Positions 8,244 through 22,323 of a DNA stretch of 34,580 nt are shown in pieces. The notes below the pieces were generated by a model. That model saw only the letters and a list, made by a program, of their open reading frames with translations, did not search any database and was not told the origin of the DNA. The stretch lies in the IMG/VR virus record IMGVR_UViG_3300047997_000006, positions 1 through 34,580 of that record; one strand, written 5' to 3'. The DNA is from a virus. Numbering within the stretch: position 1 is the stretch's first letter; each line of letters begins with the position of its first letter. Made by a program: the position numbers and the translations under genes.

Positions 8244-8429
8244 ATGGACACACCATTAGAGTCTGAACTCGTTGACATTGTTGATTTGATTGCTGACAAG
8301 AAGCGTGGCGATGCGTTAGATAAGATTAACGATTATCTATACGGCAAAGCACAAGACGTTATTGATCAGTACAAGCAAAGTGTAGCATCTAGCTACTTTG
8401 ATGAACCTACAGATACTCCAGAAGAATGA
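8244..8429 (+). CDS. Small acidic protein, probable prohead core component (gp67/68-like position)
   Basis: A 61-residue, strongly acidic, helical protein with the sequence LVDIVDLIADKKRGDALDKINDYLYGKAQDVIDQYKQ. T4 encodes the small prohead core proteins gp67 and gp68 between the portal and protease genes, and this ORF occupies exactly that slot with similar size and charge. The assignment rests on position and composition, not on a visible signature. The stop overlaps the gp21 start by 4 nt (ATGA), implying coupled expression of core protein and protease. Confidence 0.75.
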   Translation: MDTPLESELVDIVDLIADKKRGDALDKINDYLYGKAQDVIDQYKQSVASSYFDEPTDTPEE

Positions 8430-9070
8430 AACTCATTACAGAAAACATTGAGGAGGTCAAACTTTTGACCGAAGAAAAAGACGGTCAAAAGTGTCTCTAC
8501 ATTGAGGGTGTATTCCTCCAATCGGAAGTAAGAAACCGTAACGGAAGAGTATATCCATTTTCTGTTCTGGAAAAAGAAGTAGGTCGTTATAATGAAGAGT
8601 ACGTATCGAAAGGTCGTGCGCTAGGAGAATTAGGTCACCCCGATGGTCCTACTGTAAACCTTGATCGTGTATCCCACAGGATCACAACACTCAAGGCTGA
8701 AGGTAATAACTTCGTGGGCAAGGCAAGAATTCTTGACACACCAATGGGCAACATTGCCAAATCTCTCCTTGGTGAGGGTGTGAAACTTGGTGTTTCTTCT
8801 CGCGGCATGGGTAGCATTGATAAGCGTGAAGACGCTAATTATGTTATGGATGACTTTATGCTTGCGACTGCTGCTGATATCGTAGCAGATCCTTCTGCCC
8901 CTGATGCATTTGTAAACGGCATCATGGAAGGAAAGGAGTGGGTATGGGACAACGGTCTCCTAAAAGAGAAAACAGTTGCTAAATACCAGGGATACATTAG
9001 TGAATCATCCAAGAAAGATTTGGAAGCGAGGACTCTAAAAGTCTTTGAACACTTCCTGTCAAATCTCTAA
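8426..9070 (+). CDS. gp21: Prohead maturation protease
   Basis: This 214-residue serine protease of the T4 gp21 type (212 residues in T4) has a strand region YIEGVFLQSEVRNRNGRVYP, then GELGHPDG with the catalytic His at residue 71. The segment LGVSSRGMGS carries the nucleophile Ser124 or Ser125. It degrades the scaffold and trims capsid proteins at (L/I)xE sites before DNA packaging. A fitting site, LNE, is present near the N-terminus of the capsid protein encoded at 10329. The gene is coupled to the preceding core protein. Confidence 0.93.
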   Translation: MKLITENIEEVKLLTEEKDGQKCLYIEGVFLQSEVRNRNGRVYPFSVLEKEVGRYNEEYVSKGRALGELGHPDGPTVNLDRVSHRITTLKAEGNNFVGKARILDTPMGNIAKSLLGEGVKLGVSSRGMGSIDKREDANYVMDDFMLATAADIVADPSAPDAFVNGIMEGKEWVWDNGLLKEKTVAKYQGYISESSKKDLEARTLKVFEHFLSNL

Positions 9071-17297: not shown

Positions 17298-19024
17298 TTA
17301 CGTTTGAAAAAGTTCGCTGGAAGAATTTTCTTTCTACTGGCAACACATATACTGAAGTTGATCTGACCGCTAGTAAGACTAACCTTATTATTGGTACTAA
17401 CGGAGCTGGTAAGAGTACCATCTTGGATGCTCTTACCTTTTCTTTGTTTGGCAAACCTTTTCGTAAGGTCAACAAACCAATGCTGGTCAACAGTGTTAAC
17501 GAAAAAGATTGTCTAGTTGAGATTGAATTTACTACAGGACCAAATAAATTTCTTGTTAAACGTGGCATCAAGCCAGGTGTGTTTGAGATCTGGCAAAACG
17601 GATCTATGCTAGATCAATCCAGTAATGTCTCTGACTATCAGAAACATCTGGAGCAAACGATTCTGAAGATGAACTATAAGTCCTTCACACAAATTGTTGT
17701 GCTAGGTTCGTCCACGTTCGTTCCGTTTATGAGATTACCTCTAGCACAACGTAGAGAAATTATTGAAGACATCTTGGACATTCAGATCTTTTCTGTGATG
17801 AACACAGCACTGAAAGATAAGATGAAAACTTCTAACGAAGAGATGCGTGATGTTGACTACAGTGTTGACATGGCGGAGCAAAAGATTTCTATGCAACGTC
17901 AGATGATTGAACAATTATCTACTCGTGACGAAGCAAATATCAAAGAGAAACAATCACGTATTGAAGAGTTGTTGGTGGAAGAAGAAACCTGTCAACGATC
18001 TGTATCTACACTATGTGAAGAATCTGAAAGACTTTGTGAAGATATGAAAAGTCTTTCAGCAGCAAATAAAAAATTGATAACTTTAAATAACTTGAAAGGA
18101 AAACTAACAAACAAGTTTTCTAGTTATAAGAAACAGCACGAATTTTTTGCAAAGAATGATACATGTCCTACGTGTAGTCAGTCAATCACACATGAGTTGA
18201 AAGAACAAAAGACTAGTGAGATTACCTCAAAGTATAAAGAACTTGTCTCGGCAATCGAAGAGATTCATTCTAACATTGAAGACGAGCAGGCAAGAGACCA
18301 GCAGTACACTGTAAAAAATCAAGAAATGAATGGCATTCAACAGCAGATTGCTGGGTATAATGCTACTGTTAATCGTATCCATAAGAACGTCAAGCAACTC
18401 TTTTTGGATGTAGAAACATTACAAAATTCCAAGGATGATAAGTCTGAAGAGTATGAGAAGTTAAAATATCTAGAGAAGGAACATGATGATCTGAAAAAAC
18501 AGATTGCTGTTGTCAAGAAAGAACGAAACACTTTACTTGCAGCTGGACAACTACTTAAAGATAATGGTATCAAAACCAGAATCATTAAAAGGTATCTACC
18601 AGTGATGAATAAACTCATCAATCAGTATCTGCAGAACATGGACTTCTATATTAACTTCGCACTAAATGATAGTTTTGAAGAAACCATCAAGTCAAGGTTC
18701 AGGGATATCTTTTCCTACGAGTCTTTCTCGGAAGGAGAGAAAGCTCGTATTGATATCGCTTTGCTGCTTACTTGGCGTTCTATTGCTAAACTTAAGAATT
18801 CTGTTGATACTAACATCTTGATCCTGGATGAGATCTTTGACGGATCTCTTGACAACAATGGTACAGGAGAACTTGGGTGGATACTACGTAACTTTGATGA
18901 CAACACAAACGTCTTTGTCATCAGTCATAAGGAGAGTTTGGAAGGAAAGTTCGACCGAACACTCACCGCAATCAAAGAAAAGAACTTCAGCATTATGCAG
19001 GAGACACTTTCCGAAGCGGCATAG
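17294..19024 (+). CDS. gp46: SbcC/Rad50-like recombination nuclease ATPase subunit
   Basis: A 576-residue SMC-like ATPase. Walker A is GTNGAGKST (34-42). Long coiled coils flank a zinc hook CPTC (291-294). The ABC signature is FSEGEKAR (S479-E482 core), followed by Walker B LILDEIFDGSLD and an H-loop ISHKE. T4 gp46 is 560 residues. It forms the Mre11-Rad50-type complex with gp47, processing ends for strand invasion. It is the last gene of the gp55-47-46 unit, which ends in the terminator at 19026. Confidence 0.96.
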   Translation: MITFEKVRWKNFLSTGNTYTEVDLTASKTNLIIGTNGAGKSTILDALTFSLFGKPFRKVNKPMLVNSVNEKDCLVEIEFTTGPNKFLVKRGIKPGVFEIWQNGSMLDQSSNVSDYQKHLEQTILKMNYKSFTQIVVLGSSTFVPFMRLPLAQRREIIEDILDIQIFSVMNTALKDKMKTSNEEMRDVDYSVDMAEQKISMQRQMIEQLSTRDEANIKEKQSRIEELLVEEETCQRSVSTLCEESERLCEDMKSLSAANKKLITLNNLKGKLTNKFSSYKKQHEFFAKNDTCPTCSQSITHELKEQKTSEITSKYKELVSAIEEIHSNIEDEQARDQQYTVKNQEMNGIQQQIAGYNATVNRIHKNVKQLFLDVETLQNSKDDKSEEYEKLKYLEKEHDDLKKQIAVVKKERNTLLAAGQLLKDNGIKTRIIKRYLPVMNKLINQYLQNMDFYINFALNDSFEETIKSRFRDIFSYESFSEGEKARIDIALLLTWRSIAKLKNSVDTNILILDEIFDGSLDNNGTGELGWILRNFDDNTNVFVISHKESLEGKFDRTLTAIKEKNFSIMQETLSEAA

Positions 19025-19025
19025 G

Positions 19026-19050
19026 GAGGGTCTTCGGACCCTCTTTTTTT
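19026..19050 (+). terminator. Rho-independent terminator with TTCG tetraloop
   Basis: GAGGGTC (19026-19032) and GACCCTC (19037-19043) form a perfect 7-bp stem closed by a C(TTCG)G loop, the very stable tetraloop. Seven T follow. It ends the gp55-gp46 transcript directly after the gp46 stop. Confidence 0.93.
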
Positions 19051-19053
19051 GTA

Positions 19054-19080
19054 TATAATATATGCATCAACGCAAGAGAC
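19054..19080 (+). promoter_or_regulatory. -10/leader element, copy 1 (repeated at 21237)
   Basis: TATAAT followed by ATATGCATCAACG and AGAGAC lies just after the terminator and ends 3 nt before ATG 19084. It is identical at 23 of 27 positions to the sequence before the AAA+ gene at 21265. No good -35 element is visible, because the expected place falls within the terminator stem-loop. Confidence 0.55.
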
Positions 19081-19083
19081 CCG

Positions 19084-21195
19084 ATGAACACCGCAGAAAT
19101 CAAAGGTAACCTCGCTCGCCTGCTAGCCACCGAGAACCTGGTGGTTGAGCATCGTAAGGTCTCCACTGCATCTTTCAACGTAGACACCCGTGTCCTCACC
19201 CTACCCCTCTGGAACGCCTCTAACAGCGTCTATGACCTGCTTGTAGGACACGAGGTAGGTCATGCCCTCTATACCCCTAACATCGACTGGGCAGAGGTTG
19301 CACAGGTGCCTAAAGATTATGTCAACGTGGTTGAAGATTCTCGTATCGAGAAACTGATGAAGAGAAAGTATCCTGGACTTACCAAAACTTTCTTCAAAGG
19401 TTATCAAGAACTTGATAACGATGACTTCTTTAATATTAAGGACGAAGAACTAGAAACCATTTCTTTTATCGATCGTATTAATCTTCATTGTAAGATTGGT
19501 GCCTTTTCGGTTATGCCTTTTAATGAAGTAGAACGTGAGCTGGTTCGTGAGGTAGAGAACTGTGAGACTTTTGATGAAGTCATTGTTGTTTGTCAAAAAA
19601 TTTATGAGTATTCACAGCAAGAAAAAATTGCTGATGCAAATCAAAATGCAACTGCTCAAGGTACTACAGAAAAAGTTGAGTCTTCAGATACTACAGAACC
19701 ATCCAACACTGAAACTACTGATCAGGGGCAATCCATACAGCAAGATGGTGATGATGAGGGAGAACAGTTAGATGAAAACATTGCTGCTGGTGGAAATGCT
19801 GGTGGTGATAGAGCTGAAACACAACGTTCGTTTGATGAAAACATACAGGACTTAACTGAAACTGCTCCATATTTTAGAGATCCTGTATACGTAGAGATTC
19901 CAAAGATTAATCTTGAGAATATTATTGTGGACCAGGCAGTGCTTCAAAAACATATTGATGCTCACTACAGTTGCCGTGATCACAAACGTTATGATAATCC
20001 TCTAGAATTTGCTGACAATAGTTTTGATCTCTTTAAAAAAGACTCGCAGAAGGAAGTCAACTACCTAGTCAAAGAGTTTGAATGTAAGAAAGCAGCAGAC
20101 TCCCATGCTCGCACATCAACTGCACGTACTGGTGTTCTTGATTGTACCAAGCTTCACACATACAAGTACAATGAAGATCTATTCAAGAAAGTTTCTGTAA
20201 TTCCTGATGGTAAAAATCATGGAATGATCTTTATTCTTGACTGGTCTGGATCTATGGCAAACTATTTGCAAGATACAATCAAGCAATTGTTGTCTCTGGT
20301 GATGTTCTGTCGTAAGGTAAACATTCCTTTTGAGGTCTATGCTTTCACTTATGAATGGAACAATCGTTTTCTCGATCCTGAAGAGCATGACTATGATCCA
20401 GATGCAGTACAGGACAGATGCGTTCGTGAAGAAAATAAATTCATGTTCCATAAACGATTCTCTCTCCTGAATTTGTTGTCATCTCGTTCAAACAGTAAGA
20501 ACTTTGACAGTCAGTGTCGCAACATCTTTCGCATCGGTTTCTTCATGAACTCCTATGGTGTTTCTACACCTCCTGGTATTGACTTGAGTGGTACACCTCT
20601 CAATGAATCTATCATTGTGATGCATGAAATTATCCCAATGTTTAAAAAAATGACTGGGGTTCAGAAGATCAACACTGTAATTTTGACTGATGGTGAGTCA
20701 AACAATATCAGCTACAATGTTACTATTGGTGCTGGTAGTGAGTATACTTACTGGGGTCAACGTGCTGTTGATGGTGATGTTCGTCTTCGTGATCGTAAGA
20801 CAGGTCATGTCTATAGACGGTGCGGATCTAATTTTAATGATTCCATCACTACCATTTTGCTTGAGAATTTATGTCACAATTTTCCTGAAGTAAACTTCCT
20901 TGGATTCCGAATCTTAACTGGTAATGATTTTTCTTACCTTTATCGCAATACATATAATCAACCTGCTGATGATGTTCTTAAAAAATGGAGGAAAGATAAG
21001 TCCTTTGTGTTTAAGAAACAACTTGGATACAATTCTCTGTACTTAATTGCATCTACTTCAATTAATAAATCATCCGACTTTGAAGTCAAGGATGATGCTA
21101 CTAAAGCACAGATTGCTAAAGCATTTAAGAGCATGTTGAAAGCAAAGACCACGAACAAGAAAATCCTTTCTTCCTTTGTCGATATGGTCGCCTGA
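19084..21195 (+). CDS. Metallopeptidase-like plus VWA-domain protein (CobT-like partner of the AAA+ ATPase)
   Basis: This 703-residue protein has three parts. The N-terminal domain carries HEVGHALYT (H56, E57, H60) followed by NVVEDSRIEK (E84), the ligand set of a gluzincin-type zinc peptidase. Residues about 182-255 are an acidic Thr/Gln/Asp linker. The C-terminal half is a VWA domain with a MIDAS: DWSGSM (D386, S388, S390), and TDGE (T535, D536) later. VWA proteins encoded beside MoxR/CobS-type ATPases normally work with them, and such an ATPase is the next gene. CobT of the aerobic cobalt chelatase has a similar acidic-linker-VWA layout. All key residues look intact. The substrate is unknown, and the peptidase activity is inferred from the motif. 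Confidence 0.88.
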   Translation: MNTAEIKGNLARLLATENLVVEHRKVSTASFNVDTRVLTLPLWNASNSVYDLLVGHEVGHALYTPNIDWAEVAQVPKDYVNVVEDSRIEKLMKRKYPGLTKTFFKGYQELDNDDFFNIKDEELETISFIDRINLHCKIGAFSVMPFNEVERELVREVENCETFDEVIVVCQKIYEYSQQEKIADANQNATAQGTTEKVESSDTTEPSNTETTDQGQSIQQDGDDEGEQLDENIAAGGNAGGDRAETQRSFDENIQDLTETAPYFRDPVYVEIPKINLENIIVDQAVLQKHIDAHYSCRDHKRYDNPLEFADNSFDLFKKDSQKEVNYLVKEFECKKAADSHARTSTARTGVLDCTKLHTYKYNEDLFKKVSVIPDGKNHGMIFILDWSGSMANYLQDTIKQLLSLVMFCRKVNIPFEVYAFTYEWNNRFLDPEEHDYDPDAVQDRCVREENKFMFHKRFSLLNLLSSRSNSKNFDSQCRNIFRIGFFMNSYGVSTPPGIDLSGTPLNESIIVMHEIIPMFKKMTGVQKINTVILTDGESNNISYNVTIGAGSEYTYWGQRAVDGDVRLRDRKTGHVYRRCGSNFNDSITTILLENLCHNFPEVNFLGFRILTGNDFSYLYRNTYNQPADDVLKKWRKDKSFVFKKQLGYNSLYLIASTSINKSSDFEVKDDATKAQIAKAFKSMLKAKTTNKKILSSFVDMVA

Positions 21196-21209
21196 CAAAC
21201 CGTCCACTG

Positions 21210-21230
21210 CCCCCTAGTCTTGGGGGTTTC
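21210..21230 (+). terminator. Weak hairpin after the VWA gene, possible partial terminator
   Basis: CCCCC (21210-21214) can pair with GGGGG (21222-21226) around a 7-nt loop. It is followed by only three T and then CC. The short stem and poor T-run suggest attenuation or partial termination. Confidence 0.45.
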
Positions 21231-21236
21231 CTGTTC

Positions 21237-21263
21237 TATAATAAATTCATCAACGAAAAAGAC
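21237..21263 (+). promoter_or_regulatory. -10/leader element, copy 2 (repeat of 19054)
   Basis: TATAATAAATTCATCAACG followed by AAAAAGAC ends 1 nt before ATG 21265. It has the same spacing logic and 23/27 identity to the copy before the VWA gene. No -35 element of note is present. Confidence 0.55.
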
Positions 21264-21264
21264 A

Positions 21265-22323
21265 ATGCCTCGTTCCGCTAACATCGATCCCAGCGCACTC
21301 CAAGAGTTTTTTGCTGACAACTATGGCAATGAGTTTGATAGTCAAGCAGTTCTGAAAGCTGCTGATCAATTTGGTGTTTCCTACCCTACCATTTGCAAAC
21401 GTCTTGAAAAGTATAAAGTTAGTTACGGTAAGTGGAGTCTCACTGCCGAGCAACTAGAGCAAACCTATCAGGCACCCACTGCACAACCTGCTATTGAACT
21501 AAATCTTATTCCTGAAAAAGATGATTCCTTCATCCAGTTTGGTGATTTCGCTGATATTAAAAAAATTATTAAGTCCCGTATTTTTTATCCTACGTTTATC
21601 ACGGGTCTTTCTGGTAATGGCAAAACGTTCAGTGTCGAGCAAGCATGTGCTCAACTCGGTAGAGAACTCATCCGTGTCAATATCACAGTAGAAACTGATG
21701 AAGATGATCTTATTGGCGGTTTCCGTTTGGTTGACGGTAATACTGTCTGGCACAATGGTCCTGTCATTGAAGCTCTTGAGCGTGGTGCTGTTCTCCTTCT
21801 GGATGAAATCGATTTGGCATCCAACAAAATTCTTTGTCTCCAATCTATTCTTGAGGGTAAAGGTATCTTCTTAAAGAAGATTGGTAAGTTTATTCAACCT
21901 ACAGAAGGGTTTACTATCCTTGCTACTGCTAATACTAAAGGTAAAGGTAGTGATGACGGTCGTTTCATTGGTACTAATGTATTGAACGAAGCATTCCTTG
22001 AGCGTTTCTGTGTCACTTTTGAGCAAGAGTATCCTACTCCTGCTATTGAGTCCAAGATTCTTTTAAAACTATGTGATGATGCACAGTTTGTTGGAAAACT
22101 GGTAGACTGGGCTGACATTATTCGCAAGACTTTTAAAGATGGTGGTATTGATGAGGTAATTAGCACCCGTCGTTTGGTTCACATCGTCCAAGCTTATGAG
22201 ATCTTCGGTAAACGTCGCATGAAAGCTATCGAAGTCTGTACTAATCGTTTTGACGAAGAAACTAAAACGTCGTTTATTGAACTCTATTGCAAAATTGATG
22301 AAAATGCAGATTACACATGGTAA
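21265..22323 (+). CDS. cobS: CobS/MoxR-type AAA+ ATPase
   Basis: The start is ATG 21265; an in-frame TTG at 21220 would run through the leader repeat and hairpin. The 352-residue protein begins with a helical, HTH-like region (FGVSYPTICKRLEKYKVS). An AAA+ core follows: Walker A GLSGNGKT (114-121), Walker B LLLDE (177-181), a sensor-1 region ILATANTKGKG and a C-terminal helical lid. The ETDEDDLIGGF and ILEGKG segments are typical of the MoxR/CobS clade. Cyanophage homologues are usually annotated cobS, after the cobalt-chelatase ATPase subunit. With a VWA-peptidase neighbour and no CobN in view, a chaperone- or remodelling-type machine is an alternative reading. Confidence 0.92.
   Translation: MPRSANIDPSALQEFFADNYGNEFDSQAVLKAADQFGVSYPTICKRLEKYKVSYGKWSLTAEQLEQTYQAPTAQPAIELNLIPEKDDSFIQFGDFADIKKIIKSRIFYPTFITGLSGNGKTFSVEQACAQLGRELIRVNITVETDEDDLIGGFRLVDGNTVWHNGPVIEALERGAVLLLDEIDLASNKILCLQSILEGKGIFLKKIGKFIQPTEGFTILATANTKGKGSDDGRFIGTNVLNEAFLERFCVTFEQEYPTPAIESKILLKLCDDAQFVGKLVDWADIIRKTFKDGGIDEVISTRRLVHIVQAYEIFGKRRMKAIEVCTNRFDEETKTSFIELYCKIDENADYTW

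Follow-up and report, generated by a model that had tools for sequence, protein, structure and literature searches.

A core gene pair of cyanomyoviruses couples a CobS/MoxR-type AAA+ ATPase to a CobT-like VWA protein with a predicted zinc-peptidase domain

The cobS gene belongs to the 25 core genes of cyanophages (PMC3037559). It serves as a marker gene in work on marine viral communities, and its function in infected cells has been stated to be unknown (PMC9983427). Liu et al. named the pair that it forms with its neighbor cobST in 2021, and regarded cobT as "mistakenly annotated as a peptidase" (PMC8651126). Is the partner of CobS a cobaltochelatase subunit or a peptidase? The question is raised by a 34.6-kb fragment of a T4-like cyanomyovirus (the whole stretch of DNA that we analyzed, referred to here as the window). 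Its genes encode terminase, tail sheath, portal, gp21-type protease, major capsid protein, helicase, late sigma factor, gp47, and gp46, then the two proteins of interest, gp45, gp44, a second clamp-loader subunit, RegA, DNA polymerase, UvsX, and a DnaB-type helicase. The pair occupies positions 19084..21195 (VWA protein) and 21265..22323 (AAA+ protein) on the plus strand, as do its parts and leaders described below, and its nearest named relative is in Synechococcus phage S-CAM1 (78% and 86% identity, respectively). The preliminary description of this locus saw in it a candidate for an undescribed system, which the literature contradicts: the same adjacent pair is recognized among cyanomyovirus core genes as viral cobST, with its members (PHROG_249 and PHROG_459) named cobS/cobT or CobS/peptidase (PMC8651126).

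The first gene encodes a 703-amino-acid protein that matches PHROG_459, "peptidase" (E = 1.7e−266). No Pfam or NCBIfam model matched the protein, and a sequence search of solved structures returned nothing significant. Its N-terminal domain (residues 1 to 188; 19084..19647) contains the motif HEVGH at residues 56 to 60 (19249..19263), in which H56 and H60 are predicted zinc ligands and Glu57 is the predicted catalytic residue. The motif NVVED at residues 81 to 85 (19324..19338) likely supplies the third zinc ligand, either E84 or D85. By composition alone, HExxH is expected 0.02 times in a protein of this size. An acidic flexible linker (residues 184 to 245; 19633..19818), with 16 D/E versus 2 K/R over 62 residues, leads to a C-terminal VWA domain. 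The MIDAS of this domain is complete, consisting of D386, S388, and S390 of the motif DWSGS (residues 386 to 390; 20239..20253), T504 (20593-20595), and D536 (20689-20691). The combination of zinc-ligand motifs, acidic linker, and full MIDAS that the preliminary description reported in one protein is thus present in a single reading frame.

In the full-length model (pLDDT 79.5), an ordered N-domain and the VWA domain are separated by a disordered linker (pLDDT <50 for residues 191 to 240). The N-domain folded alone reached a pLDDT of 89.1. No structural match of this domain is strong by itself (best E 0.02, best Z 7.3), yet nearly all of them are zinc peptidases or other zincin-fold proteins: abylysin, jannalysin, selecase, ArdC, ZMPSTE24, BepA, BlaR1, Wss1, IrrE/PprI, LTA4H, and M1 aminopeptidases. 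Because the fold matches are consistent and an independent motif is invariant in homologues, the modeled N-domain is well supported as a zincin domain, and we infer that it is catalytic. Residues ~270 to 703 match the MIDAS domains of Rea1/MDN1 (Z 13.9 to 16.1) and the VWA domain of NorD bound to NorQ (Z 11.7 to 15.3), and most of these matches outrank other VWA domains. Solved CobT structures (9uka and 21vu) were absent from the Foldseek matches, and these entries may postdate that library.

Residues H56, E57, H60, N81, E84, D85, R87, and E89 show no substitution in any of the 143 viral homologues covering this region. This invariance covers the three positions proposed earlier as zinc ligands (H56, H60, and E84); E84 is plausible as the third of them, but D85 is equally invariant. 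We found the signature HExxH...NxxED.R in 161 loci, with identities as low as 20%, and the loss of HExxH from most homologues, considered at the outset as a possibility, does not occur within the family. In 15 of the 16 loci without the signature, the AAA gene is so near the end of the contig that this portion of the partner gene would not fit. The remaining one (L184:4209-4514), a distant relative on a gammaproteobacterial MAG contig, reads HEGAGH, with one extra residue, and keeps NVIEDVRIEK. The HExxH and N/E/D residues are also retained in Pelagibacter and Ochrobactrum phage homologues of 20 to 33% identity, as HEVGH in HTVC008M, HECAH in Mosig, and HESAH in Ochrobactrum phage vB_OspM_OC (20% identity). 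The HExxH and a downstream acidic third ligand, as found in zincins, are thus conserved in the family, and we consider the peptidase label of the 703-amino-acid protein justified. In Klebsiella, Vibrio, Microcystis, and Gordonia phages, neighbors of CobS-like genes likewise combine HExxH with a MIDAS-type DxSxS. Pseudoalteromonas phage XG4, whose record is marked UNVERIFIED, has the VWA and HExxH domains in separate genes of swapped order (L161:3869-6111), followed by the AAA gene, gp45, and gp44. A role of the protein as the capsid maturation protease was rejected, the gp21-type protease being encoded separately at 8426-9070.

Two scans of IMG/VR yielded 157 loci. Both genes occur in 145 of them; the two share a strand in every case and are adjacent in most. 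In 11 of the 12 exceptions, the missing partner falls at or beyond the contig end. The one possible true exception (L068) shows no AAA gene in the 2.7 kb that follow; in other loci this gene can be up to 4 kb away. Frequent occurrence of the AAA+ gene without the VWA gene, also considered at the outset, is therefore not seen within the family. Among named-phage records, the counts of VWA and AAA genes are equal for Synechococcus phages (365/365), records named "Cyanophage" (61/61), and Prochlorococcus phages (24/24), and in pelagiphages (phages of SAR11) the pair is found at the same position. We rejected a cellular origin for this exact family: all 16 loci from a genome scan are on MAG or bin contigs, none from an isolate, and look like misbinned phage DNA. 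A scan of viral contigs gave no locus with the protein of the Ochrobactrum phage as query and a single weak one with that of the Microcystis phage. CobT/CobS genes of the type found in the Klebsiella phage p4727 are widespread in IMG/VR records ~110 kb long (L204-L232), and in one locus (L162) they adjoin a DNA polymerase gene.

The second gene encodes a 352-amino-acid CobS/MoxR-type AAA+ ATPase (PHROG_249). We place its start at the ATG at 21265; the mechanical open reading frame list extends the gene to a TTG at 21220. The protein matches AAA_5 (PF07728, 1.3e−16) and has the complete Walker motifs attributed to it in the preliminary description: Walker A GLSGNGKT (21604..21627), invariant in the AAA+ alignment, and Walker B LLLDEID (21793..21813), of which L177-E181 and D183 are invariant. 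Sensor and arginine-type motifs are also present. The protein is CobS-like by its matches to TIGR01650 (CobS, 4.6e−20) and to a solved CobS structure (1.5e−18, by sequence), but its TIGR01650 score is far under the cut-off of this CobS equivalog model (72 versus 558.55 bits). Its N-terminal extension of ~110 residues (21265-21600) includes a stretch that weakly resembles a helix-turn-helix (Pfam HTH_23/DUF2089, below cut-off) and could be a DNA-binding part.

The same promoter-like leader, as had been noticed earlier, stands ahead of both genes, as TATAATATATGCATCAACG at 19054..19072 and TATAATAAATTCATCAACG at 21237..21255. Their shared pattern, TATAATAnATnCATCAACG, occurs exactly twice in the window, against an expectation of 0.09; it was derived from these two sites, and its informative part is the absence elsewhere in the window. 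A terminator-like hairpin precedes each gene, that of the upstream gp46 gene at 19023..19046 and one after the VWA gene at 21209..21227. Because each gene has both a leader and a preceding hairpin, each probably has its own transcript start. A literature search on expression timing gave no usable paper.

How does the 703-amino-acid protein relate to cellular CobT? Aerobic cobaltochelatase (CobNST), like the phage pair, joins an AAA_5 motor (CobS) to a VWA/MIDAS partner (CobT), and CobT shares the layout of N-domain, acidic linker, and C-terminal VWA domain. In contrast to cellular CobT, which is recognized by PF06213 and CobT_C, the phage protein matches neither model; its VWA/MIDAS and adjacent CobS-type AAA+ partner are as in CobT. 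The peptidase site also differs. None of 24 alphaproteobacterial CobT sequences has HExxH at the equivalent site, as judged by eye, where the sequence typically reads RGxxDxxALRxxHHD...AR...(D/E)A.E.AR.E..GA. In one CobT (L260), an HExxH is found elsewhere, in an upstream-extended frame. Direct homology of the N-domain to bacterial CobT was rejected, as the hhalign score of 22.1 was reached by several of 150 column shuffles (maximum 26.2). The link is instead made by the p4727-type phage CobT, which matches Pfam CobT (1.4e−22) and CobT_C (6.6e−100), retains HEVGH or HEVAH together with NALED, and aligns with the cyanophage N-domain with the motifs in register (E = 3.6e−7). Our conclusion is that the phage protein, as a distant relative of CobT, keeps a peptidase site that cellular CobT lost or never had.

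Cyanobacterial DUF2201 proteins (PF13203) resemble the phage protein in having HExxH, an N..(A/C)D motif, and a VWA domain with DxSGS, and a P-loop/MoxR-like ATPase is a neighbor (adjoining in L235 and L236). A profile comparison with the N-domain over residues 18 to 64 scored 37.0, above all 150 shuffles (maximum 30.9). DUF2201 proteins are, however, cellular, and the similarity is at the profile-profile level, with no match of the 703-amino-acid protein to DUF2201_N (PF13203). We regard the phage protein as DUF2201-like in its way of working, and at most as a possible member of that family. NorQ-NorD and Rea1/MDN1, in which a VWA/MIDAS partner also serves an AAA_5/MoxR-type motor, provide the best structural matches of residues ~270 to 703. 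They act on NO reductase and pre-60S ribosomes, respectively, and we know of no peptidase domain in the MIDAS partners NorD and Rea1/MDN1.

On balance, we think it probable, by a modest measure, that the pair is a two-component MoxR/CobS-type AAA+ machine whose VWA partner has a probably active zinc peptidase, and that it remodels or cleaves a target rather than inserting cobalt. If the pair resembles NorQ-NorD and Rea1, the AAA+ protein would assemble into an ATP-driven ring. The C-terminal VWA/MIDAS domain of the 703-amino-acid protein would dock on this ring, as NorD docks on NorQ, and would link it to the target. The acidic flexible linker may give the zincin domain, probably an active zinc metallopeptidase, access to a substrate that ATP hydrolysis has pulled or exposed. 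In this way, a specific protein or complex would be unfolded, remodeled, and/or cleaved in the course of infection. The preliminary description had suggested such a machine in place of a cobalamin enzyme. We confirm the peptidase site, which does not vary, and also find a role in cobalamin synthesis unlikely, but proteolysis and the target remain at the level of inference.

The target would most likely be in phage DNA replication or recombination, or in host takeover. In the window the pair is flanked by gp47/gp46 and gp45/gp44, and in pelagiphages and the Ochrobactrum phage, as in cyanophages, it lies between gp46 and gp45. The CobS/CobT-like pairs seen in unrelated phages are beside or near genes for DNA polymerase, ligase/Pol III alpha, primase, or a RecA-family protein. 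This position in a replication/recombination module favors a target in DNA metabolism, which is the weakest step of the proposed mechanism: because early phage regions are generally rich in replication-type genes, the proximity may be a mere early-region effect.

It is unlikely that the machine is a non-proteolytic remodeler, with the zincin domain in a structural role, binding zinc or substrate, and the pair limited to remodeling or assembling a complex. The closest structural partners, NorD and the Rea1 MIDAS domain, do serve remodelers, and the CobT-like partner in Pseudomonas phage Nican01 has no HExxH, from which it follows that the machine can work without a peptidase in at least one lineage. 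Structural zinc binding, however, does not require a catalytic Glu, and Glu57 is as invariant as the histidines.

In the published proposal, viral CobST would combine with host CobN into a hybrid aerobic cobaltochelatase, making more cobalamin (pseudo-B12) for ribonucleotide reductase (PMC8651126). This is possible in Synechococcus-family hosts because 147 of 151 of their genomes have CobN/ChlH-type proteins, as counted with a model that covers both types, and the AAA+ protein is CobS-like. We nevertheless consider it distinctly improbable. The AAA+ score is far under the CobS cut-off, and the 703-amino-acid protein has no Pfam CobT match and carries an invariant peptidase site that is missing in cellular CobT. 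No CobN-type protein was found in the window, in agreement with the preliminary description, or in seven phage genome records. The pair is also carried by phages of SAR11, which is reported to be B12-auxotrophic (PMC9296465), the lack of CobN in Pelagibacter being taken from the literature. An enterobacterial (Klebsiella) phage carries p4727-type CobT, and the control genome of Escherichia coli has no CobN. Even among 58 alphaproteobacterial genomes, 20 of the 41 with CobT have no CobN-type gene, some perhaps through incompleteness, and CobT in cells may often serve a purpose other than cobalamin synthesis. In a Caulobacter control, CobT was detected and CobN was not. The invariant peptidase site, the co-inheritance of the pair, and the absence of CobN from the phages are supported, as is the earlier suggestion that a cobalamin role is unlikely. 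Where the viral cobST paper treats the peptidase label as the mistake and assigns a cobaltochelatase role (PMC8651126), our analysis supports the peptidase fold and site and disfavors the cobalamin role.

That the pair unfolds or cleaves a host defense protein is very improbable: the N-domain resembles the antirestriction protein ArdC in structure, but typical counter-defense genes are variable, whereas this pair is core and syntenic in nearly all cyanomyoviruses, and it had no match in PADLOC, a library of defense rather than counter-defense proteins, a result on which a known defense system was also rejected.

We propose that this is a known gene pair with an intact zinc-peptidase domain whose functional label is probably wrong. 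Among cyanophage auxiliary metabolic genes, cobS is widely listed under vitamin B12. Should the pair be a protease or remodeler, this metabolic reading of ocean viromes is wrong, and the pair would represent a core, near-universal function of cyanomyoviruses that is testable by single active-site mutations. We tentatively suggest, at a likelihood a little short of even, that the most widespread marine myoviruses encode an ATP-driven AAA+/VWA metalloprotease, mislabeled as vitamin B12 genes, that processes a phage-replisome or host protein, and that bacterial CobT is a relative whose peptidase site was lost.
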